Part shown: piece after piece, positions 4,076 to 39,450 of the stretch | Position numbering within the stretch: position 1 is the first letter of the stretch | Layout of the letters: every line of letters begins with the position of its first letter | DNA from: a virus | IMG/VR virus record: IMGVR_UViG_3300043570_002681 | Location: 1-42,455 of that record | Direction: 5' to 3' (one strand) | Length of the DNA: 42,455 bases | Made by a program: the position numbers and the translations under genes | The notes under the pieces: model-generated | Seen by the model: the letters and a program-made list of their open reading frames with translations, nothing else | Told to the model about the DNA's origin: nothing | Databases searched by the model: none

Positions 4076-5545
4076 ATGAATCCATTATTTTTAACCGACG
4101 GTTACAAAACAGGACATCACCAACAATATCCAAAAGGAACAACGTTGGTCTATTCTAACTTTACTCCTCGTAGTAATAAATATGCTCCTAAAGGATGCGA
4201 CCAACTGGTAAGTTTCGGCCAACAAATGGTAATGAAACAAATCAACGAGGCTTTTAACAAAGATTTCTTTAGCAAACCAAAAGATGAGGTTTGTGGAGAA
4301 ATGAAACGCGAATTGTCGATGTACTTAAACACTGACTACGATGTAAGCCACTTTGAAGCCCTACACGATTTGGGTTACCTACCAATCGAAGTTAAATCAA
4401 TTGAGGAAGGGTCTACCGTACCAATGAGAGTACCTGTCTTGACAATTTACAACACACATCCAGATTTTTATTGGATTACCAATTACTTGGAGACAGTAAT
4501 ATCTAACTTGTTATGGAAACCAATGACCAGTGCTACTATTTCCCGTGCCTACCGTAAATTATTTACAGAATGGCAAGAAAAAACTGATGCTGAAAAAGGT
4601 TGGTTTGTAGATTGGCAAGCCCATGATTTCTCAATGAGAGGTATGGACTCTATAGATGCTACAATCTCTTCAGGTTTGGGTCACTTAACAAGTTTCTCTG
4701 GTTCTGATAGTTTACCTGCAATCTTTGGAGCCCGTAAATTCTACAACGAAGAGGGATTTGTGTCCGGTTCGGTAAATGCAACAGAGCACTCAGTAATGTG
4801 CGCTGGAAGTAAAGACGATGAGATTGGAACATTCCGTAGATTATTGGAGACATATCCAACAGGAATACTTTCAGTAGTCTCTGATACTTGGGACTTATGG
4901 AAAGTTTGTACTGAACATATTGTTACCTTAAAAGAGGAAATTCTTGCAAGAGAAGGTAAATTGGTTATTCGTCCTGATAGTGGAGACCCAGTCGAAATTA
5001 TCTGTGGTAAAAGATGGAATGATGAACAAAATCCATACGATGAAAATGTAGATGCTATTGAGAAAGGAGTTATTGAATTACTTTGGGACGTATTTGGTGG
5101 AGAAATCAATGAACAAGGTTACAAAGTCTTAGACCCTCATATTGGAGCAATCTATGGAGACAGTATTACATTAGACCGTGCTGAACAAATCTTCCAAAGA
5201 TTAGAAGCAAAAGGTTTTGCAAGTACAAACATTGTATTAGGTGTTGGAAGTTTCACATACCAATATAACACTAGAGATACGTTTGGTTTTGCAATGAAAG
5301 CCACTTATGTTGAAATTGATGGAATTGGTCGTGAAATCTTCAAAGACCCAATCACTGATGACGGTGTTAAAAAATCTGCAAAAGGTTTATTAAGAGTTGC
5401 TGGAGACGAAACATGTTTCTTATTAGAAGACCAATGTACTTGGGAAGATGAAGCAACTGGTAAATTAAAAACTATCTATTTGAATGGTCAATTTGAAAAC
5501 CAAACAACTCTTACAGAGATCAGAGAACGTTTAAAAAGAGCATAA
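4076..5545 (+). CDS. nampt: Nicotinamide phosphoribosyltransferase-like protein (NAMPT / Namat)
   Basis: Full-length NAMPT family protein (489 aa; family about 470-500). The N-terminus has TDGYKTGHHQQYP and YSNFTPRSNKYAP. The core has FSMRGM, the FSGSDSLPA loop and NATEHSVM, which carries the catalytic His. The phosphate-binding segment VIRPDSGDPV and the C-terminal GVGSFTYQYNTRDTFGFAMK follow. Known members make NMN from nicotinamide and PRPP. The phage NARP1 variant (Namat) joins nicotinamide to ADPR-pyrophosphate to give NAD+ directly. No NMN adenylyltransferase gene is visible in this window, which favours the NARP1 reading, although one could lie elsewhere in the genome. Confidence 0.93.
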   Translation: MNPLFLTDGYKTGHHQQYPKGTTLVYSNFTPRSNKYAPKGCDQLVSFGQQMVMKQINEAFNKDFFSKPKDEVCGEMKRELSMYLNTDYDVSHFEALHDLGYLPIEVKSIEEGSTVPMRVPVLTIYNTHPDFYWITNYLETVISNLLWKPMTSATISRAYRKLFTEWQEKTDAEKGWFVDWQAHDFSMRGMDSIDATISSGLGHLTSFSGSDSLPAIFGARKFYNEEGFVSGSVNATEHSVMCAGSKDDEIGTFRRLLETYPTGILSVVSDTWDLWKVCTEHIVTLKEEILAREGKLVIRPDSGDPVEIICGKRWNDEQNPYDENVDAIEKGVIELLWDVFGGEINEQGYKVLDPHIGAIYGDSITLDRAEQIFQRLEAKGFASTNIVLGVGSFTYQYNTRDTFGFAMKATYVEIDGIGREIFKDPITDDGVKKSAKGLLRVAGDETCFLLEDQCTWEDEATGKLKTIYLNGQFENQTTLTEIRERLKRA

Positions 5546-8931: not shown

Positions 8932-9507
8932 ATGAAAGTAATATTTTTAGATAACGATGGAGTAATCTGCCTCTATAATAACTGGGGAGGTAGAGCAAAG
9001 AAATGGAGCAAGTATACCAAACTTAATCCAGGTCAGACCAGTCTAGCACTTGCACCAGTAGATATTCGTTTTGATGACTTTGACAAGAAAGCTGTTAAGG
9101 TATTAAACCAAATCTTGGAAGAGACTGGAGCTGAAATTGTAGTAAGTTCTGACTGGAGGCTACATGCTAACCTTGAGGAAATCGGAGAATATTACTTGGC
9201 AAAAGGAATCTTGAAGGCTCCAATAGCATTTACTAAAAGATATATTGGTTGCGATAAACCAGACGAATTTGAATGGAAGCGTAGTACGATGTACGAACAA
9301 CAGAGATGTATCGAAGTTCGACAATACCTAACTGACCATCCAGAAATTACCAACTGGGTTTGTATTGATGACTTAGAACTTGGAGAGAGGGACAAATACC
9401 ATCACGCTCAAGAATGGGGACTATCTAATTTTGTACATACCCCAAACGAAAAAGAGGGAATTAAACAACAAGGGGTTAAAGATAAAGTTTTACAATTTTT
9501 AAAATAA
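8932..9507 (+). CDS. HAD-fold phosphatase-like protein of the RNA-repair 'Swiss Army Knife' type
   Basis: The ATG at 8932 (191 aa) directly follows the upstream stop and opens on the HAD motif VIFLDNDGVI. VVSSDWRLHANLEEIGEYYL (about 67-86) matches the S-S-D-W-R signature of HAD_SAK proteins. The MYEQQRCIEVRQYL helix and NWVCIDDLELG (about 142-152) supply the final acidic motif. The middle Asp of the usual DxD is replaced by Asn-Asp. Relatives are fused to or encoded beside RNA ligases and kinases. Here it lies in the same operon as cREC and a CCA-adding enzyme, suggesting end-healing of broken RNA. Confidence 0.8.
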   Translation: MKVIFLDNDGVICLYNNWGGRAKKWSKYTKLNPGQTSLALAPVDIRFDDFDKKAVKVLNQILEETGAEIVVSSDWRLHANLEEIGEYYLAKGILKAPIAFTKRYIGCDKPDEFEWKRSTMYEQQRCIEVRQYLTDHPEITNWVCIDDLELGERDKYHHAQEWGLSNFVHTPNEKEGIKQQGVKDKVLQFLK

Positions 9508-27872: not shown

Positions 27873-28721
27873 ATGAAATTATTAAATAAAAAGGTTGTAA
27901 TAACTGGACATACTGGATTTATTGGCAAGAATCTTATAGAAAGATTTGAAAATTCTGAGTTTTTACTTATTGGTAGAGACCTTTCTCTTATAGAGAAAAT
28001 TAAAGAATTTAATCCAGACTACATATTTCACTTTGGAGCAGAAATCTACGATGAATCTAAAATGTTTGAATCTAATCTAGAGCTTACCTACAAATTACTA
28101 GAAGTGACAAAAAACTTAGAATTCGAAGCTTTTATATATTGCGGATCATCATCGGAGTACGGCAGAAAACCAGAAAAAATGAAAGAAACCGACATATTAG
28201 AACCTCGAAACATGTACGAGGCTACCAAAGGAGCATGCACTCTATTGTGTCAATCATATGCAAAAACTTACAATAAACCAATTGCTATAGTTAGACCATT
28301 TTCAGTATATGGCAGATATGAAAAGGAGCATAGATTTATACCTACACTATTCCGAAAATTTGATGCAAAAGAGAGAATTAAAATCTCTCCAGGAAATCAT
28401 GACTTTATACATATTGATGATTTTATTGATGGTGTACTTCTTGTAGCCACTTTAGATTCTGAAAAAATTAAAGCACAAATAATAAATTTAGGAACTGGAG
28501 TTCAATATACAAATCAAGAAGTACATGACACTTTTAAATTAATTTATGGATATGATATTGAAGTTGAAAAATCTAAAGACTTAATGAGAACTTTTGATAG
28601 TGAAAATTGGGTTGCCGATATTACAAAAGCCAAAACAGAATATGGATTTAATCCTAAATATAATTTACTAACAGGTTTAAAACAAATCTACAATGAACGT
28701 AACTCTAGAGAAGTTAAATAA
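27873..28721 (+). CDS. NAD-dependent sugar epimerase/dehydratase (SDR)
   Basis: 282 aa extended SDR. VVITGHTGFIGKNLIE (G-x2-G-x2-G, about 9-24) binds NAD. The active-site Ser is in YCGSSSEYG and the Tyr-x3-Lys is YEATK (about 115-119). IVRPFSVYGRYE is the usual nucleotide-sugar segment. Relatives rework UDP-, GDP- or dTDP-sugars. It opens a cassette that also has split transketolase, methyltransferase and glycosyltransferase genes, so the product is probably a modified sugar for glycosylation or a surface glycan. Confidence 0.9.
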   Translation: MKLLNKKVVITGHTGFIGKNLIERFENSEFLLIGRDLSLIEKIKEFNPDYIFHFGAEIYDESKMFESNLELTYKLLEVTKNLEFEAFIYCGSSSEYGRKPEKMKETDILEPRNMYEATKGACTLLCQSYAKTYNKPIAIVRPFSVYGRYEKEHRFIPTLFRKFDAKERIKISPGNHDFIHIDDFIDGVLLVATLDSEKIKAQIINLGTGVQYTNQEVHDTFKLIYGYDIEVEKSKDLMRTFDSENWVADITKAKTEYGFNPKYNLLTGLKQIYNERNSREVK

Positions 28722-29319
28722 AAGAATACTTGAACTAAGTATTAAACACAATCTATCACATTTAGGAAGTTGCTTTACTACCCTGCCAATTATCCTTGAA
28801 ATTTTTGAAAAGAAAAGAAAAGAGGATAGGTTTGTTCTATCTAATGGACATGCAGGATTAGCATACTATGTTATACTAGAACATTTTACCGGAGTCGATG
28901 CTGAAATGCTTTTAGTTAAGCATGGAATCCATCCCGAAAGAGACATTGAGAATGGAATTGAAGTTTCTACTGGAAGTCTTGGATTAGGATTAACTATAGC
29001 AACTGGTATGGCATTAGCAAATCCAAATGTAACTGTATATTGTATAATCTCTGATGGAGAATCTGCAGAGGGTTCAATATGGGAATCTCTTAGATTTATA
29101 GAAGAAAGCAATCTAACAAATATAGAGGTTTATGTGAATATTAATGGATGGGCTGCATATAAACCGGTAGATTCAGAAAAACTATCAAATAGACTAAAGG
29201 CATTTTTGCCCACTATTAATTTAAGATATATGGATGTTAATGGAACTATCGAATTTGAAACTCCATTAGCTGCCCACTATACAATGGCAAATAATAATAT
29301 GAAAATAAAATCAACATGA
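28693..29319 (+). CDS. Transketolase-like N-terminal subunit (thiamine diphosphate)
   Basis: 208 aa. LSNGHAGLAYYVILE and STGSLGLGLTIATGMALANP (about 96-115) and CIISDGESAEGSIWE (about 116-130) match the pyrophosphate-binding Gly-Asp-Gly region of transketolase, here with Ser-Asp-Gly. Only the N-terminal domain is encoded; the matching second domain is the gene at 30695. It overlaps the SDR gene by 29 nt. Two-gene transketolases of this kind can transfer two-carbon units to sugars. Confidence 0.82.
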   Translation: MNVTLEKLNKRILELSIKHNLSHLGSCFTTLPIILEIFEKKRKEDRFVLSNGHAGLAYYVILEHFTGVDAEMLLVKHGIHPERDIENGIEVSTGSLGLGLTIATGMALANPNVTVYCIISDGESAEGSIWESLRFIEESNLTNIEVYVNINGWAAYKPVDSEKLSNRLKAFLPTINLRYMDVNGTIEFETPLAAHYTMANNNMKIKST

Positions 29320-30683
29320 CAAATTCACTAGGACCTCATTTATATGATAAAATTATTTCAATGTCAACCGAGATTGAAGGTAATTATTTAGAAATTGGAA
29401 CATATAACGGTTCCGGAGTATCAACTATAGCAAAAAAATTGCTAGAAAAGAAAATTTATGTTATCGATCCATTTATAGAAGATGGAAATACCCAGAGGTT
29501 GTCAAATACCCCTTTATATGAAAAGATGAATTCAGTTAAAAATGAATTTTTAAACAATACGAAAGGTCTAGACAACATCCATCATTTTGAGAATACTACT
29601 GAAGAGGTGTCAACCACTCTAACGCCAGAAGAAATATTAAATATGAACGTTAGTATGATACTTATTGACGGAGATCATCATACGGACTTTGTAACTATAG
29701 ATTATGAATTTGCAATGAATTTAATAGGTGAAAAATCAGGATTTATTATATTTGATGATTTACATGTACCTGATGTTATGTTAGCATATGAAAATTTTAT
29801 CGAAAAATATAAAAATAGGATAGAGTTTATTGATAAATTCTATATGGCGGCTAACCTTGTAAAAATAAAAAAAAGTAAAACACCGAAAACTGTATTCTTT
29901 ACAATTATTAGCGATAGTCATTATCACGGATGTAGAACTGACGATTTTATTAAAAGTTTTAAGAAATTTCATCCAGACGTCGACTTAGTTGTTTTTGGTC
30001 AGGATGATATTGATGAAATGTTTGCATCTCGTCCTGAATTAAATTTTTATAATTCAAAAGCATCTTTTGCTAAAAAACTATATAATGACTACGATTTAGT
30101 TGTTAATATTGACGCTGATCACTTGATTTTTGGAAGACTTGATGAAATCTTAGAAGGTGACTACGACGTAGCAGCACCAACAAACTTTAATGTATACGCA
30201 AATTCTTCATTAGAAACATCTACGTTATGTAATGGATATGTGGTACCTCCTTCAGTTTTATCTAGTGGAAACACAGATACAATATTAGTGCCTCAGCATA
30301 AGTATTTACAGGCAGGATTAATTGCTAGTACTTCTAAGCTTTTTTGGGATCAATATGAAAATGCATGCATTAAGTTCTCACATTTTTTTGGACATTATGA
30401 AAATGATGTACTTAATATAATATGTCACATGCTTCCATATAAATTAAAAGTACTTGAAGGAGATTTTGTATTTACCAGTCCTAATTTTACATGTTATTAT
30501 GGATGTGCATCATTAGGAAGAGAAAATCAAGTTGTTGTAAATAATAATAGATTAGAGTTAGATGGTAGGCCTTTTAAAGCATATCACTTTGCTAGAGGTG
30601 GAAGTAATAAACCTCTAGTTTCTGAACTATTTACACAAGAAGTCGATGAATTTGTAAAAAGAAATGTATTAGACATAAATTAA
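29316..30683 (+). CDS. Methyltransferase-glycosyltransferase fusion
   Basis: 455 aa in two parts. Residues about 1-190 are a class I methyltransferase of the Methyltransf_24 type (YLEIGTYNGSGVSTIAKKL for SAM binding, MILIDGDHHTDFV for the second loop). Residues about 195-450 resemble a GT-A nucleotide-diphospho-sugar transferase: VFFTIISDSHYHGCRTDD, then VVNIDADHLIFGRLDEIL with a D-x-D metal motif, and FGHYENDVLN. Fusing the two steps suggests modification and transfer of the same sugar. It overlaps the transketolase-N gene by 4 nt. Confidence 0.75.
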   Translation: MTNSLGPHLYDKIISMSTEIEGNYLEIGTYNGSGVSTIAKKLLEKKIYVIDPFIEDGNTQRLSNTPLYEKMNSVKNEFLNNTKGLDNIHHFENTTEEVSTTLTPEEILNMNVSMILIDGDHHTDFVTIDYEFAMNLIGEKSGFIIFDDLHVPDVMLAYENFIEKYKNRIEFIDKFYMAANLVKIKKSKTPKTVFFTIISDSHYHGCRTDDFIKSFKKFHPDVDLVVFGQDDIDEMFASRPELNFYNSKASFAKKLYNDYDLVVNIDADHLIFGRLDEILEGDYDVAAPTNFNVYANSSLETSTLCNGYVVPPSVLSSGNTDTILVPQHKYLQAGLIASTSKLFWDQYENACIKFSHFFGHYENDVLNIICHMLPYKLKVLEGDFVFTSPNFTCYYGCASLGRENQVVVNNNRLELDGRPFKAYHFARGGSNKPLVSELFTQEVDEFVKRNVLDIN

Positions 30684-30694
30684 ATAATAACCCT

Positions 30695-31168
30695 ATGAGA
30701 AGAACATTTGCCGCATATCTAGAAAAAAAGATAGAACAGGATCCCTCGATTATATTAATAACAGCAGATCTGGGTTATGGAATGTTTGATCGCATTCGAG
30801 ATAGATTCCCAAATAATTTTATTAATTGTGGAGCATCCGAACAGTTGATGATTGGTTTATGTATTGGTGCTGCGTATGAAGGTAAAAAACCTATAGCGTA
30901 TTCAATTACACCTTTTTTAATATATCGACCTTTTGAATTACTAAGAAATTATGTAAACAAAGAACAATTAAATATTAAACTAATCGGATCTGGTAGAGGC
31001 CGAGATTATGCACACGATGGATTCAGCCACTGGGCTGAAGAAGACGAACAAGTCATGTCAACATTTACTAACATAGAATCTAGATGGCCTACATTAGAAA
31101 ATATAGAAGCTCAATTAGATGAATGCTTTAATTCAAACAAACCTTATTATATAAATTTAAAACGTTAA
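30695..31168 (+). CDS. Transketolase-like pyrimidine-binding subunit
   Basis: 157 aa matching the middle domain of transketolase/DXS: ITADLGYGMFDRIRDRFPNN, NCGASEQLMIGLCIGAAYEG with the catalytic-type Glu, and GRDYAHDGFSHWAEED with the conserved His. The final domain is lacking, as in other split forms. Together with the gene at 28693 it would form a complete active site at their interface. It is separated from its partner by the fusion gene, which is an unusual arrangement. Confidence 0.8.
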   Translation: MRRTFAAYLEKKIEQDPSIILITADLGYGMFDRIRDRFPNNFINCGASEQLMIGLCIGAAYEGKKPIAYSITPFLIYRPFELLRNYVNKEQLNIKLIGSGRGRDYAHDGFSHWAEEDEQVMSTFTNIESRWPTLENIEAQLDECFNSNKPYYINLKR

Positions 31169-31171
31169 AAC

Positions 31172-31855
31172 ATGGAAAACCCAACAATTAGATTAGTGGA
31201 TAATACAATTCACGAACTTGCATTAAACAATTATGAGTTAAAAGAGCATTTTGGTAATTGGCAAAATTATACAGGTGCTATTCTTGAACAATTCAATGAT
31301 CGTAATTATTACGAAGATTTCGTTGATAAAAATGATAAAGTTATCTTAGACCTAGGTGCTAATATTGGTTTATTTGCAATTCACGTAGCTCCCTTTGCTG
31401 AAAGAATAGTGTGTTTTGAACCTACACCAACCCATTTTAAATTACTTACTCAGTTAACTGAAGAGTTTAAAAACATTGAAGTAGTAGAAGCAGCAGTAGC
31501 ACCAACTACAGGTCCTATAACTTTTTATACAAATCCAAGTAACACTACAACAAATTCATTGGCGTATCGTGAAGGATTTGCATTTGAAGTTAAAGGATAT
31601 TCTTTGAAAGATATTGCAGAAAGTTTTAATTTGCAGAAAATAGACTTCTTGAAAATGGACATTGAAGGTTCTGAAGATTATGTACTTAATGACGAAACTG
31701 TTAATTACATGTTACAAAACATTCCAAAGGTTTTAATTGAATTTCATCATAATTATCAAGTAGACACTGAAAGATACAAAACAATCTTTGAAAACGCAGG
31801 GTTTACAGTTAATAAATTTATGCATGATTCAATTATGTGTATAAAACAAAAATAG
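31172..31855 (+). CDS. FkbM-family methyltransferase
   Basis: 227 aa. VILDLGANIGLFAIHVAPFA (about 54-73) is the SAM-binding loop. VCFEPTPTHFKLL and LKMDIEGSEDYVL, which carries the family's acidic signature, follow. FkbM enzymes usually O-methylate sugars or polyketide-type products. It fits the glycan cassette. Confidence 0.88.
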   Translation: MENPTIRLVDNTIHELALNNYELKEHFGNWQNYTGAILEQFNDRNYYEDFVDKNDKVILDLGANIGLFAIHVAPFAERIVCFEPTPTHFKLLTQLTEEFKNIEVVEAAVAPTTGPITFYTNPSNTTTNSLAYREGFAFEVKGYSLKDIAESFNLQKIDFLKMDIEGSEDYVLNDETVNYMLQNIPKVLIEFHHNYQVDTERYKTIFENAGFTVNKFMHDSIMCIKQK

Positions 31856-31856
31856 T

Positions 31857-32690
31857 ATGAACTTTGTAATCTGGTCACCTGATTATAATGAGAATTCCGG
31901 AGGAATTATAGCATTACATGTATTAGCTAATTTAATAGCTGAACAAGGTGAGAATTGTTACATATATTCTACTAAAACATTTGAAGGATCCTCTGCAAAA
32001 TTAATACAGAATGAAAATGTATTTAATTTTGATAAAAACAATACAATGTACATCTACCCTGAGGTTATTTGTGGAAATCCATTCGGCGGTAAATTTGTAA
32101 CTAGATGGTTACTTAATACACCAGGTGTATTAGGAGGAGACGGAATATATGAACCTACTGATTTGGTTTATAAATATTATGATTATTTTGATGCTCCTGA
32201 TGAATCTAAAGTTTTAGGTGAACTAAGAACTTTTAAACTTAAATTAGATAAATTTGTTAATAAAGGACTAGAAAGAAACGGAGAATGTTATATTGTTAGG
32301 AAAGGTAGCAATAAAGTCTTAGATAAACATAGATCAGATTCATTAAATATTGACGAGTATATAAATGATGATTATTTAATAGATGTATTTAATAGCAAAG
32401 ATTTTTTTGTTTCTTATGATTCTATGTGTTTTCATTTACAGCAAGCTGCCTTATGTGGATGTGTTCCTGTAGTTATTCCGGATGAAGGAGTTTCAAAAGA
32501 AGTTTTTATTGAAAAGGCTCCAGTTAATAAATATGGAGTTGCTTATGGATTTGATGACATTCCACACGCAAGAGAAACCATGCATTTATTAAAAGAATAT
32601 TTAGAAGGCATGGAATCTGAATCAATTGAATTAGTTAAAAAGTACATCAACAATTGTTATGATAAAATGGACATAATAAAAAGTCGATGA
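31857..32690 (+). CDS. Glycosyltransferase-like protein (277 aa)
   Basis: The first residues IWSPDYNENSGGIIALHVLA resemble the start of GT-B transferases of the GT4 type that open with a G-G-x-x pattern. DFFVSYDSMCFHLQQAALCG followed by a Val-Pro-Val-Val-Ile strand resembles the donor-site region (acidic residue, then Ala-Leu-x-Gly-Cys-x-Pro-Val). It is somewhat short for a full GT-B fold. It probably attaches the sugar made by the upstream enzymes. Confidence 0.7.
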   Translation: MNFVIWSPDYNENSGGIIALHVLANLIAEQGENCYIYSTKTFEGSSAKLIQNENVFNFDKNNTMYIYPEVICGNPFGGKFVTRWLLNTPGVLGGDGIYEPTDLVYKYYDYFDAPDESKVLGELRTFKLKLDKFVNKGLERNGECYIVRKGSNKVLDKHRSDSLNIDEYINDDYLIDVFNSKDFFVSYDSMCFHLQQAALCGCVPVVIPDEGVSKEVFIEKAPVNKYGVAYGFDDIPHARETMHLLKEYLEGMESESIELVKKYINNCYDKMDIIKSR

Positions 32691-32700
32691 TATATACTTA

Positions 32701-32895
32701 ATGAAGACATTTAAAGAATTTATGGTTGATGAGGCCAAAACAATCGGCCTAGAAGAGATCCAACCTAACCAAGAAATTAATCCAGTCGAACCTGGAGATG
32801 GAGAAGACCACAGATTGGTAAAAATACGCCAATTCAAAGGAACTGTCCAAGATTACGCAAGTTACTGGGAAGACCGAATTAAAGAGAATATATAA
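32701..32895 (+). CDS. Small protein with capsid-targeting-like leader (64 aa)
   Basis: Starts MKTFKEFMVDEAKT, very like the T4 internal-protein leader (MKTYQEFI-x-E-A). A prohead-protease-like site would fall after VDE. The mature part is short, charged and probably helical. It is the first of seven such proteins up to 39450. Function of the mature part unknown. Confidence 0.72.
   Translation: MKTFKEFMVDEAKTIGLEEIQPNQEINPVEPGDGEDHRLVKIRQFKGTVQDYASYWEDRIKENI
32869..32895 (+). promoter_or_regulatory. Late-type promoter, variant upstream box
   Basis: GAAGA (32869-32873), 15 bp, TATATAA (32889-32895), lying within the end of the preceding gene and about 33 bp before the ATG at 32928. Confidence 0.5.
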
Positions 32896-35362: not shown

Positions 35363-36058
35363 ATGAAACATTTACAACTTTTTGAAGAGTTCATTAATGA
35401 AGGAAAATCATTCGAATTCTCTTTTAATTACAATACTGATGAGGATGATGTAGAATACATCCAAAATATTCTAATGAATGCTGGAGTTGATGCGATTGCA
35501 GAGCCAGGACTAGATTCTGAAGAGATGGTTGTTAAAGCCAAAAATGCAGTTGAATTACGTAAGGCTAAAAAAGCCATTCAGGCAGATGGATTTGAAATCA
35601 ATGAGTCAGTTGTTAATGAAGGTGATATGACTAAATTCTATGATGGATTTATTGTACTAGATTCAAAAACAAAAAAGACATATAAGTTTAAGTACGTTAA
35701 AGGAACTAAAAACACACAAGTTGAATCTAATGCTATTTCAAAATTAGCAAGCTCTACTAATCAACCTAGCTCAAATTTTATGGTTCATGGATTTATACAA
35801 AAAGGTGAATGGAATAATTCTAAAGAAAAAACCATCGACGAATCAGTTGTTAATGAATCTGTCAACGTTAAAGACATTAAAGTTGGTACTATCCTAAACT
35901 TTAAAGATGGTGAAACATGGAAAGTTACTAAAACTTCAGGAATCTCTTCCGGAAAGATTTTTGCAGCCCCTTATGGAGATACAAAAAAGAGCTACGTTTC
36001 AGTTGCTATTGAATTTTCAACTGAAAACTTAGAGAAAGACTTAACATCAATAGAATAA
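35363..36058 (+). CDS. Candidate internal-head polyprotein A (231 aa)
   Basis: Leader MKHLQLFEEFINE, then Gly14: a T4-type prohead-protease site (I-x-E before a small residue). The motif ESVVNE recurs at 81-86 and 160-165, each followed by Gly or Ser. These would divide the chain into three modules of about 73, 79 and 66 residues. All are small alpha/beta units without known motifs. The leader is shared with the genes at 36061, 37347, 38013 and 39106. By analogy with T4 internal proteins it may be packed in the head and injected with DNA. Confidence 0.75.
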   Translation: MKHLQLFEEFINEGKSFEFSFNYNTDEDDVEYIQNILMNAGVDAIAEPGLDSEEMVVKAKNAVELRKAKKAIQADGFEINESVVNEGDMTKFYDGFIVLDSKTKKTYKFKYVKGTKNTQVESNAISKLASSTNQPSSNFMVHGFIQKGEWNNSKEKTIDESVVNESVNVKDIKVGTILNFKDGETWKVTKTSGISSGKIFAAPYGDTKKSYVSVAIEFSTENLEKDLTSIE

Positions 36059-36060
36059 TC

Positions 36061-37344
36061 ATGAAAAAAGTAAAACTATTTGAAGAGTTCATAGTAGAGT
36101 CTCAAGCACGTACGTATGAATCCAAAATTGGAGACATTCATATTATGGCGGGGGAGGCAGATTCTTTTACTGCATTCCGAAAGGAATTCATGGACGAATA
36201 TGGCAAACCAAAATCAGTTAAAGAACTTAAACAATTAGAGGCTTGGTTACAAACTATTTGGAACGAGAGAGGTACAAATGAAGCACTATCTATGGATGCT
36301 GTTTACATTCACCAAATCACTGGTTCAGGTCAGGACTCTGCACAAAACTTTATTGATGACAATAATATAGATTCTGCTAAATTGGTTGCCTATCTTAAAC
36401 AACATAAAGACTCTAAAGAGAAATATGATGTTAGAGACATGATTAATGGAACTAACAAGAACAAAAGATTCATAAAGCAATTCGTTAATGAATCTAAAGA
36501 GGTCTTTCCAAACGAAATTGTCGGAAACGATCAAATTCTTTTCAAAAAGGAATGGGAAAAAATGAATGGCGGCAAACTTGCTGCTAAATATAACCAATAC
36601 TACAAGGGATATGATATTGATGCAGGTGGACGTATATTTAATAGCGTTGACCAACTAGAAAAATATATTAAGGCTACAGAGCTTTCAAACAATCAATACA
36701 ATAAATACAAATACATGCCAGAAAAACCTATTGGAGAATCTGTAGTTAATGAAGAATTTGATATATCTAAGCTAAAAGCAAAAGATACTATAGAACTAAC
36801 AAATACAAGGACGGGTGATGTAGGAAAGTACACGGTAAAAAGAATCTTTGGTTCAAGTAATATTAAAGAAATTGAGGTACTAACACGCAATAAACAACTA
36901 TTAACTTTATATTATAGTAAAGAACGTGGACTTCAAAACTTTAAAGGCGATGTCTACGAATATATGTCAGAAAGTAAACTTGGAGAATCTGTAGTTAATG
37001 AAGATGTACCATATAGTGTAACTAAGAATACCTTCAGAGACTATGATTCTTTAAATATTACACAGTATGATAGTATTCAATTTAAAGAGGATGGTAAAAA
37101 ATGGATTGTTAGAGCTGTAACTGCGCATGATAACATAGATAAAAGTGCCCTACAAAAACTAGGATTTGGCAATTCAGGTTCTACGAGATATGCCGGAATC
37201 AATACATATACTAAAAATGCTAATTGGAATGATTTAGAATTAACTAAGAAACAATTTGATGAATTAGTTAAAATAGTAGACGCTGGTTGGGCTTCTCATG
37301 CCAAGGCTTTTGCTGATTTTTATAAAGATAGACAGGCAGATTAA
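36061..37344 (+). CDS. Candidate internal-head polyprotein B (427 aa)
   Basis: Leader MKKVKLFEEFIVE, then Ser14. Further candidate cleavage sites are FVNE (141-144), then Ser; ESVVNE (226-231); and ESVVNE (309-314). This gives four modules of roughly 80-130 residues. The first includes a helical DUF-like stretch (SMDAVYIHQITGSGQDSAQN). The last two are small beta-rich units. It starts 2 nt after polyprotein A and appears translationally linked to it. Confidence 0.75.
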   Translation: MKKVKLFEEFIVESQARTYESKIGDIHIMAGEADSFTAFRKEFMDEYGKPKSVKELKQLEAWLQTIWNERGTNEALSMDAVYIHQITGSGQDSAQNFIDDNNIDSAKLVAYLKQHKDSKEKYDVRDMINGTNKNKRFIKQFVNESKEVFPNEIVGNDQILFKKEWEKMNGGKLAAKYNQYYKGYDIDAGGRIFNSVDQLEKYIKATELSNNQYNKYKYMPEKPIGESVVNEEFDISKLKAKDTIELTNTRTGDVGKYTVKRIFGSSNIKEIEVLTRNKQLLTLYYSKERGLQNFKGDVYEYMSESKLGESVVNEDVPYSVTKNTFRDYDSLNITQYDSIQFKEDGKKWIVRAVTAHDNIDKSALQKLGFGNSGSTRYAGINTYTKNANWNDLELTKKQFDELVKIVDAGWASHAKAFADFYKDRQAD

Positions 37345-37346
37345 TT

Positions 37347-37571
37347 ATGAAACACATAAAATTATACGAACAATTTATTACTGAGTCTACCAACATAAAA
37401 GATTTCTTTAAAGACCCAATGAATCTAGCCGATGCTAAGGGTTGGGTAAGAAACCTAAAACTTTCTGATGATGAGATAAAAACCAAGATAAAATCAGTAA
37501 TGAAAGATCCGTCTAAATTTAATGACCTAATGGATGCAATGACTGACGAATTAAACTTAAAGTGGAAATGA
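37347..37571 (+). CDS. Small leader-bearing protein (74 aa)
   Basis: Leader MKHIKLYEQFITE, then Ser14. The mature part (61 aa) is helical and basic, with no internal cleavage motif. The ATGA at its end couples it to the oxygenase gene. Confidence 0.72.
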   Translation: MKHIKLYEQFITESTNIKDFFKDPMNLADAKGWVRNLKLSDDEIKTKIKSVMKDPSKFNDLMDAMTDELNLKWK

Positions 37572-37993
37572 GAACTTTAATCAAAAACGTTATTAATAGA
37601 GAAGACCATGGAATCTTACCTCAAGTAACTGATGGTTTTATTCCAATCTTAGGTGAAACTAATCCAACAATTCTAAAAATTGTTAGTACTCTTAAAGAGC
37701 ATTTTGATTTTGTAATTAAGCCAGAATCTTATTGGAGAATAGAACATAAACCAACCGGACATGAGTGGCATATTGATACTGGAAGTAATAATCACATGAT
37801 GTGGTGTCAAGTAGGATGTTCAATATTACTAACGTCTAATATGCAATTTAATGGTGGTGAAACATTCTACAATAAAGAGGAACCGATCAAAGTAGAAAGA
37901 GATCTTTATGATATTGCAGCTCATTCATCAGATGAATGGCATATGGTAACTCCACACTCTGGAAATAGAGTAGTACTGTTACTTTTTATTTAA
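37568..37993 (+). CDS. 2-oxoglutarate/Fe(II) dioxygenase-like protein
   Basis: The ATG at 37568 overlaps the upstream stop (ATGA); 141 aa. The double-stranded beta-helix motif is complete: HEWHIDTG gives His-x-Asp, and DEWHMVTPHSGNRVVLLLFI gives the distal His and the 2-oxoglutarate-binding Arg. Relatives hydroxylate prolyl or other residues of proteins, or bases. It lacks the leader found in the genes around it. Possible substrates are virion proteins such as the collagen-like fibre, or DNA bases. Confidence 0.85.
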   Translation: MRTLIKNVINREDHGILPQVTDGFIPILGETNPTILKIVSTLKEHFDFVIKPESYWRIEHKPTGHEWHIDTGSNNHMMWCQVGCSILLTSNMQFNGGETFYNKEEPIKVERDLYDIAAHSSDEWHMVTPHSGNRVVLLLFI

Positions 37994-38012
37994 TATATAA
38001 TAAAACAAAGAT

Positions 38013-39098
38013 ATGAAAAAAGTAAAATTATTTGAACAATTTATCGAAGAAGCTACAACTTCTTGGGGTAAAATGATGAAAGGCGTTAGAGCCGGATCGG
38101 GTGGACCATGGTCTATTGTAGCAATTCAAGACAAAAAAGTTGTTGGACAGTCAAACGATATTAAAATTCAAGACTTGATTCCTGCAAAATATGAAGCCCT
38201 AAAAGCAGAGTTTCCTAAAGCTAAACTTCACATTGAAGATGCTGGAGGTGGAGTAGTTTGGAATGAATCCCTTAATGAGGCCCTAGCGGCGGCATCTCAA
38301 GATAAACTGACCAATCGTGATTCTTTAACAGCAAAAGTAAATGCTACACTTATTAGTAATGCTAGAAATGGAATTTTGAAAAAAATGGCAGAACCTGGTG
38401 GTAAAACCCATTATTGGAATCCTAAGACTGGAGAATATGTAGCAAAAACTATTACCTACAATGGCAAAGGAGAATATCTTTATTCAGATGTTCTAGATGC
38501 AGATGGTAATCTTACAGAATCATACGTTACTGAGGGTATAGATTCTATGGTTAAAAACCTGGAGACCATTGTTAGAAAGCAATTTAATGTTATTGAGTTT
38601 AAGGCTCCAGCAAAAAGACCATTGATCCATGAAGAATTCTTAATGATTAAAGTAAGTGATGACAAATACGGAGGACCTCAATCAGGTCTGGGTAAATTTA
38701 TTAAAAAATCAACAGGTGTCGAAGCCAGTTTTGTAGATAGTTTAGGTTCTAATAAGACATATTGGATTTCATTAGAAAAACTTGAAGATGCTAATATTAA
38801 AGAGTCTCTTAACGAGGCAAAGGATGCTACCCGAGATGAATTGATGGACCTAATGGAAACTAAATACAAAATCAAAACTGTTAGACCTTCTGAAGATTTT
38901 AATGGTCAAACAGGAGGTATTTGGATCGCAGCAGATAATGAGGAAATAATGGGCGGTAATAAAATATTTGACTACTATAATAGAAGCTCTAAATATTCAA
39001 ATGGAGTCTTAACACAACTACGAACTGCTGTAGAGAAAAAAGGTTGGTGGTTTGAATGGAACGATCCAGGAACAATCATATGCTGGCCAAAAAATTAA
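38013..39098 (+). CDS. Candidate internal-head polyprotein C (361 aa)
   Basis: Leader MKKVKLFEQFIEE, then Ala14. Candidate sites ESLNE (85-89) before Ala, ESYVTE (169-174) before Gly and ESLNE (264-268) before Ala give four modules. The first and last contain small Trp/Gly-rich alpha/beta units. The spacing (about 75-95 residues) is similar to polyproteins A and B. A possible late-type TATATAA box (37994-38000) lies 13 bp upstream. Confidence 0.75.
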   Translation: MKKVKLFEQFIEEATTSWGKMMKGVRAGSGGPWSIVAIQDKKVVGQSNDIKIQDLIPAKYEALKAEFPKAKLHIEDAGGGVVWNESLNEALAAASQDKLTNRDSLTAKVNATLISNARNGILKKMAEPGGKTHYWNPKTGEYVAKTITYNGKGEYLYSDVLDADGNLTESYVTEGIDSMVKNLETIVRKQFNVIEFKAPAKRPLIHEEFLMIKVSDDKYGGPQSGLGKFIKKSTGVEASFVDSLGSNKTYWISLEKLEDANIKESLNEAKDATRDELMDLMETKYKIKTVRPSEDFNGQTGGIWIAADNEEIMGGNKIFDYYNRSSKYSNGVLTQLRTAVEKKGWWFEWNDPGTIICWPKN

Positions 39099-39105
39099 AA
39101 GAATT

Positions 39106-39450
39106 ATGAAAAAAGTAAAACTATTTGAAGAGTTCATTGATGAAGCTGTTGCGACAGTCCTTCATGAATATGATTTCTTAGGAATGCAGGCTCAAGCCGC
39201 AAATATGTCTAGAGAGGAATGGATTGCCCACTACGGTACTCCTGAAATTGGCTCTGGAATTGATGAAGCAAAGAAAAGTATCTACACTGTCTTTTTTGAT
39301 GATAAAAATGGAATGGACTGGGATTGGGAAATTGAAGCCAGTTCACCTGAAGAGGCTATTGACCTTGTAAAAAATGGAAAGGCCCTAGGACCATACGACC
39401 AAACGCTTCCAAGAGGAGCCCATAACTTTACCGCGAAGTTATATAAATAA
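39106..39450 (+). CDS. Leader-bearing protein D (114 aa)
   Basis: Start at the ATG at 39106, identified by the leader MKKVKLFEEFIDE, then Ala14. A second candidate site, GIDE (51-54) before Ala, would release a C-terminal unit of about 60 residues with an SIYTVFFDDKNG beta start. Last of the leader family. Confidence 0.72.
   Translation: MKKVKLFEEFIDEAVATVLHEYDFLGMQAQAANMSREEWIAHYGTPEIGSGIDEAKKSIYTVFFDDKNGMDWDWEIEASSPEEAIDLVKNGKALGPYDQTLPRGAHNFTAKLYK

Follow-up and report, generated by a model that had tools for sequence, protein, structure and literature searches.

Three proteins (A, B and C) encoded in a virus record of 42,455 bases, IMG/VR IMGVR_UViG_3300043570_002681 (here called the window), are likely to be head-cargo polyproteins of a T4-like jumbo phage, packaged by means of an N-terminal leader and cut by an S77 protease that would free their modules. 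The window is a fragment from a jumbo T4-like phage group. In A, B and C, modules are separated by a recurring motif that ends in Glu, and the same modules are swapped between proteins of related phages in exact residue register. A sequence-only reading of the window had proposed the polyprotein organization from the motifs, and our analysis supports it on a comparative, not a biochemical, basis.

Motifs and leaders

All eight motifs named in the sequence-only reading were present in the checked translations of A, B and C (Table 1). Seven of them fit ES-x(1,2)-[NT]-E, the remaining one being FVNE. One site had been overlooked, namely RGTNE followed by A at residues 70-74 of B, the module of which directly follows a leader in four other phages. 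Modules do lie between the sites as had been described, but the predicted pieces have 61-113 residues instead of a spacing of 75-130. Shuffled versions of A, B and C contained on average 0.11 ES-x(1,2)-[NT]-E motifs and at most 2 (5,000 trials), as compared to the 7 observed; the motifs are not a chance occurrence. In 16 related records the density of ES-x(1,2)-N-E was 1.01 per 1000 residues in leader proteins and 0.125 in other open reading frames (ORFs), an 8-fold difference.

The leader, MK-x-x-x-x-F/Y-x-x-F-[I/L/V]-x-E, was found at the start of 207 ORFs in these 16 records, with up to 35 genes per record, and 186 ORF starts matched the pattern compared to 1.35 expected by shuffling. In the window the same leader is also present on two ORFs beyond A, B and C, encoding protein S (74 aa, at 37347) and protein D (114 aa, at 39106). 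With the final Glu counted as P1, the pattern demands this Glu, an aromatic P4 and I, L or V at P3, and leaves P2 and the residue following the Glu (P1') free. P2 is mostly Asn, and P3 is I, L or V in 193 of 194 distinct leaders (one has M), though the pattern favours such a P3. In 65% of the leaders P1' is Ser, Ala or Gly, a preference for small residues that would fit a cut site. The huge phage LR756500 has many leaders and very few internal sites, and a clear leader array was not seen in the isolate PTm1, so that multi-unit strings seem limited to the group of the window.

Many leaders have a second cut-site motif directly behind the first, for example in the related records G010 (175113) and G011 (37659; FVNE, SIINE, then G), perhaps as a built-in backup of the kind proposed for phiKZ propeptides. 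Ten tandem paralogous leader proteins of 231-315 aa, starting MKRI.NYKTFINE, are encoded at 39510-48400 of G007, and the one that was scanned matches leucine-rich-repeat models. In Sphingomonas phage PAU (W03), a cultured relative, proteins at 9332, 101031 and 106521 start with MKTLSKLYESKLNE, MKTISKLYESRLNE or MKSLTKLYESKLNE, the first of these being followed by S, and an ES.LNE motif sits inside the leader itself.

Module swapping and tests of the junctions

Swapping of modules between sites in other phages, suggested by the sequence-only reading as a check, gave a clearly positive result. BLAST segments among the cargo proteins start and stop at the motifs, and modules that form single-unit leader proteins in one phage follow an internal site in another, with the residues in register. 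For 28 internal sites the downstream module was found right behind the N-terminal leader of another protein. The C junction ESLNE then AKDATRDEL equals, at the same residue, LFEQFVNE then AKDATRDEL of a separate 106-aa protein in G004, and the A junction ESVVNE then GDMTKFYDGF equals FINESIINE then GDMTKFYDGF of a separate 92-aa protein in G011. Protein S (LYEQFITE then STNIKDFF) corresponds to the C-terminal unit of a G003 protein of 255 aa (HESTVNE then STNIKDFF), and its module closes longer proteins in four relatives, preceded by ESTVNE or ESVVSE in G001, G002 and G003 and by FMNE in G004. Modules of B, A and C are combined in a single 242-aa protein of G006. Longer strings were also detected; for example, one protein of G003 (1,029 aa) has eight sites, and one of G009 (570 aa) has five.

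The junctions were then compared by features not built into the search. The window modules were taken and the residue preceding each homologous start was read, without selecting for Glu. Glu was located exactly at P1 in 38 of 46 homologous module starts, including 20 of 24 in internal context, and in several of the eight exceptions the site was one or two residues off. Module boundaries were assessed from overlapping homology segments ending within 10 residues of a site, with random positions in the same proteins as controls (500 trials). For 67 internal sites, a fraction of 0.45 of the segments ended at the sites, whereas the controls had a mean of 0.149 and a maximum of 0.229. P1', which is outside the motif pattern, was Ala, Gly or Ser at 84% of these 67 sites against a background of 20% (p about 3e-28). 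Of the eight motifs first listed, six are followed by one of these residues, as had been claimed for many of them. Leaderless ORFs with a single site had Ala, Gly or Ser at P1' in 57%, in a set that probably includes unrecognised cargo. In a second set of loci, obtained from two further scans, 95% of the 41 sites had one of these residues at P1', and the boundary fraction was 0.37 (controls: mean 0.104, maximum 0.170); as this set is partly homologous to the earlier proteins, it represents confirmation in new sequences and not fully independent evolution.

Proposed packaging and alternative explanations

In the proposed system the N-terminal MKxxxLFEEFIxE leader would act like the capsid-targeting sequence of T4 and bring the chain into the prohead core. 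The S77 prohead protease of the phage would cut after Glu at the leader and at internal ES(x)[V/L][N/T]E sites followed by A, G or S, freeing compact proteins of 7-13 kDa. Three such proteins are predicted for A, five for B and four for C. The freed proteins would stay with the DNA and would probably be ejected into the host, where they would serve as rapidly evolving factors for take-over or anti-defence. Since any module can follow any Glu junction, recombination could reshuffle the cargo with packaging tag and protease unchanged.

Several observations weigh against this proposal. In G001 and G003 (C3) and in G006 (B2) the homologous junction lacks Glu, which means that either some modules are not separated or the sites can be dispensed with. 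In B, two sites (226-231 and 309-314) carry an acidic P1' (Glu and Asp, respectively). The protease and capsid genes were not found within the 42-kb window fragment, no virion proteomics was found for the phage group, and most modules have no recognisable domain. The AlphaFold models, made from shallow alignments, were poor for both B (predicted local distance difference test, pLDDT, 57.3; predicted template modelling score, pTM, 0.26) and C (pLDDT 53.5, pTM 0.28), and one low-confidence helix in the weak C model traverses residues 169-174.

In the B model, pLDDT was below 50 at residues 71-75, 146-196, 207-231 and 302-344, and the model was more confident about 23-70 and 76-135. In the C model the corresponding stretches were 88-103, 167-180 and 189-270, with more confidence about 31-87. 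The low-confidence stretches of these poor models cover or touch most sites, and the models are compatible with breaks there. Modules of A and C repeat in different orders, and therefore the first alignments were misaligned and were excluded from folding. Foldseek searches with the B and C models gave no match in the PDB at E<=0.001; the Tudor/SH3-like matches obtained with the B model were weak, with probabilities of at most 0.95 and E values of 0.07 or higher, and were not relied on.

Scans of A, B, C and the neighbouring leader ORFs with Pfam and PHROGs gave no usable family, and no peptidase match was found in A, B and C. The modules differ in sequence among themselves, yet none has a Pfam match. 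In relatives, cargo includes cytidylyltransferase-like and PAP2 domains. One cytidylyltransferase-like protein (L055, 623 aa, G003 155773-157644) ends in ESVTNEIMTFEQFINK, a cut-site motif and then a leader-like tail, which recalls the C-terminal propeptide of T4 Alt.

It is unlikely, in our assessment, that the proteins are packaged but remain uncut, as multidomain cargo that loses only its leader and in which the motif would be a conserved hinge, or a point of exchange, between domains. The junctions without Glu show that modules tolerate joining, and T4 internal proteins lose only short end pieces (PMC9026906, PMC5694885). However, a hinge requires neither Glu at an exact register nor a small next residue, and both match the leader cut site; the modules are also separate leader proteins in close relatives, so joining is not needed. 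The chains could also be core or scaffold material like T4 gp22, gp67 and gp68, cut into pieces that would leave the head, with no delivery to the host. Modules that are diverse and quickly exchanged, in many genes per phage, are more in keeping with T4-like internal proteins than with a conserved core, and the enzyme domains in some cargo speak in the same direction. The core genes of the group (protease-scaffold and a small gp68-like protein) are conserved and located elsewhere. We thus consider core material distinctly improbable, even if T4 gp21 cuts core proteins to short fragments that exit the capsid (PMC5694885) and the protease-scaffold protein of the group also bears ES.NE-type motifs.

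It is very improbable that the motifs are relics of in-frame fusions of neighbouring leader genes, or recombination sites at the DNA level, with no present role for a protease. Leader genes do occur in tandem with short spacing, and one B junction, KRFIKQFVNE, resembles a whole leader. This junction is an exception: what the internal sites share with the leader is its cut half (ES.VNE then A/G/S), and the targeting half (MKxxxLFE) is missing, which is the expectation for cut sites rather than relic leaders. In alignments crossing a site, the P1 Glu is the best-kept position, with an identity of 0.71 compared to 0.38 in the flanks. Only one of five codons is common to both ESLNE copies of C, and synonymous differences separate the copies of ESVVNE, which speaks for selection at the peptide level more than for a repeated stretch of DNA. 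Because synonymous codons differ between copies, the motif was rejected as a DNA recombination sequence. Each of these explanations accounts for less of the register and P1' evidence than the polyprotein reading does.

Phage group, gene neighbourhood and known systems

Searches with A, B and C identified relatives among metagenomic phage contigs with sizes of up to 319 kb. In tblastn, A, B and C had no matches in 50,697 phage records, and a relative of C was not found among 84,980 bacterial and archaeal genomes, so no annotated isolate was usable for comparison. In G001-G004 the neighbour genes of the cargo locus are mostly 85-97% identical and kept in order, which allowed a position-by-position comparison; between these conserved flanking genes the cargo locus of the window and G001-G004 is a mosaic. 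Among named records, those nearest in capsid protein were an uncultured 462-kb phage (52% identity), Prevotella Lak phages, Sphingomonas phage PAU, and the Tenacibaculum phages PTm1 and pT24. The nearest named relatives of the group infect Bacteroidota.

The head region of the relatives is T4-like, with portal, small gp68-like protein, Peptidase_S77 protease, gp23-like major capsid protein and terminase; the names portal, capsid and terminase are based on gene order and sequence reading, and capsid also on the capsid-protein search. The protease is fused to a long scaffold-like part, and in PTm1 the same fused gene is annotated as 'prohead core scaffolding protein and protease'. An S77 prohead protease beside T4-like portal and capsid genes was detected in 8 of 18 records, and additionally in PTm1, PAU, pT24, Lak-A2 and LR756500. 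A second, short Peptidase_S77-like ORF (132 aa) is located a few kb upstream of the cargo locus in G001 (37116, L044) and G003 (36115, L046); it is separate from the main protease-scaffold gene and absent from the window.

Table 1. Putative cargo genes, leaders and predicted cut sites in the window. Sites are given by residue number, with the residue that follows.
Feature	Position	Strand	Observation
64-aa ORF, T4 IPI-like start MKTFKEFMVDEA	32701..32895	+	Conserved in G001-G004; T4 IPI starts MKTFKEF; possibly another cargo protein
Protein A	35363..36058	+	231 aa; leader and predicted modules A1 (14-86), A2 (87-165), A3 (166-231); homologues of each module found separately
Leader of A, MKHLQLFEEFINE	35363..35401	+	Predicted cut after Glu13; among the 207 such leaders
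Site A 81-86, ESVVNE then G	35603..35620	+	Downstream module behind FINESIINE in G011_35324
Site A 160-165, ESVVNE then S	35840..35857	+	Downstream module behind ENFLNE in G009_1833 and G010_167853
Protein B	36061..37344	+	427 aa; leader and predicted modules B1-B5
Leader of B, MKKVKLFEEFIVE	36061..36099	+	Leader pattern
Site B 70-74, RGTNE then A	36268..36282	+	B2 directly behind leader in G002, G004, G005, G007; pLDDT <50 at 71-75
Site B 141-144, FVNE then S	36481..36492	+	B3 behind LFEQYITE in G001 and G003, behind KKFINE in G002
Site B 226-231, ESVVNE then E	36736..36753	+	B4 preceded by MEGVNE in G010_175113
Site B 309-314, ESVVNE then D	36985..37002	+	B4 homology ends here in G010_175113, whose next site is ESFLNE
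Protein S, single-module, 74 aa, MKHIKLYEQFITE then STNIKDFF	37347..37571	+	Same leader type
Protein C	38013..39098	+	361 aa; leader and predicted modules C1-C4
Leader of C, MKKVKLFEQFIEE	38013..38051	+	Leader pattern
Site C 85-89, ESLNE then A	38265..38279	+	C2 behind FVNEPVLNE in G011_36071
Site C 169-174, ESYVTE then G	38517..38534	+	Equivalent is ESFMNE before C4 in G003_27723; C3 in G001 and G003 without Glu
Site C 264-268, ESLNE then A	38802..38816	+	In G004_69140, C4 is the sole module after LFEQFVNE (99 aa aligned, 79% identity)
Protein D, single-module, 114 aa, MKKVKLFEEFIDE then A	39106..39450	+	Same leader type

Amid the cargo genes lies a leaderless 141-aa ORF (37568-37993), present too in G002 and G004, whose HxD...H pattern suggests a 2-oxoglutarate/iron oxygenase; it had no Pfam match. 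Elsewhere in the window, a phosphoribosyltransferase/PRPP (phosphoribosyl pyrophosphate)-synthetase-like protein (1434-2309; PF00156, PF14572) is encoded near a nicotinamide phosphoribosyltransferase (4076-5545; PF04095, PF18127), a pair that makes up the gene content of a phage NAD+ salvage pathway. Positions 27873-32690 hold epimerase, transketolase-like, methyltransferase-like and glycosyltransferase-like genes that are almost unmatched in the four syntenic relatives, while both flanks are conserved, and the segment looks like an exchanged surface-sugar island.

The closest match among known systems is the single-unit internal proteins of T4, which carry one tag, are cut by gp21 after Glu and are ejected (PMC9026906). 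The T4 targeting sequence comprises the first ten residues; positions 4 and 7 are important in targeting, positions 8 and 10 in processing, and no processing takes place when position 10 is Asp (PMC9026906). When the sequences were compared, IPII and IPIII of T4 started with MKTYQEFIAE then A. The window proteins resemble IPI, IPII, IPIII and Alt in their short N-terminal leader (here MKKVKLFEEFINE then A) and small diverse cargo (PMC9026906, PMC3012670), and a cut after Glu, here by the Peptidase_S77 protease, is likewise predicted. In T4 one leader serves one protein, whereas a single leader here is followed by as many as five modules, with further sites of the same type between them, and the modules are swapped between proteins. 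One mature protein per leader applies to S and D but not to A, B and C (3, 5 and 4 predicted units). The novelty relative to the T4 internal proteins is one tag for several proteins.

In phiKZ and SPN3US, head proteins have several protease sites, all after Glu, and repeated cuts at the motif S/A-X-E clear a propeptide (PMC10052503, PMC9026906). Here, in contrast, P3 is hydrophobic and P2 mostly Asn, so that the sites do not follow S/A-X-E, and the stretches delimited by the sites are conserved modules that exist as separate genes as well. The closest concept is that of the polyvalent proteins of phages and conjugative elements (Iyer et al. 2017), in which several domains on one chain are thought to be injected with the DNA and proteolytic release has been suggested (PMC5512222). 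Their most common hub domain is an embedded peptidase (about 36%), mostly zincin-like (PMC5512222), and they often contain recognised enzymes. Unlike these, A, B and C have small, mostly unknown units without a peptidase match, a dedicated packaging tag and putative sites for a head protease that would act in trans. In the open-access literature no report of head-cargo polyproteins was found, and polyproteins are unmentioned in a jumbo-phage survey and a 2026 review.

On balance we lean towards a combinatorial cargo system, in which interchangeable small effectors behind a shared Glu cut site would travel in strings of one to about nine units under one tag, would be released by the head protease and could be assorted into new sets through recombination at the sites, with no need for new targeting signals. 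Such a polyprotein system of a prokaryotic virus would serve delivered effectors rather than structural proteins. If true, it extends the internal-protein system of T4 from one protein per tag to many, and would explain the large and quickly changing set of injected proteins in giant phages. It also suggests that several proteins might be loaded in a fixed ratio into T4-type capsids by a single tag. The leader and the Glu sites would then provide a simple rule to list likely injected phage proteins among unknown genes, and genomes rich in such genes are where anti-defence factors are sought.

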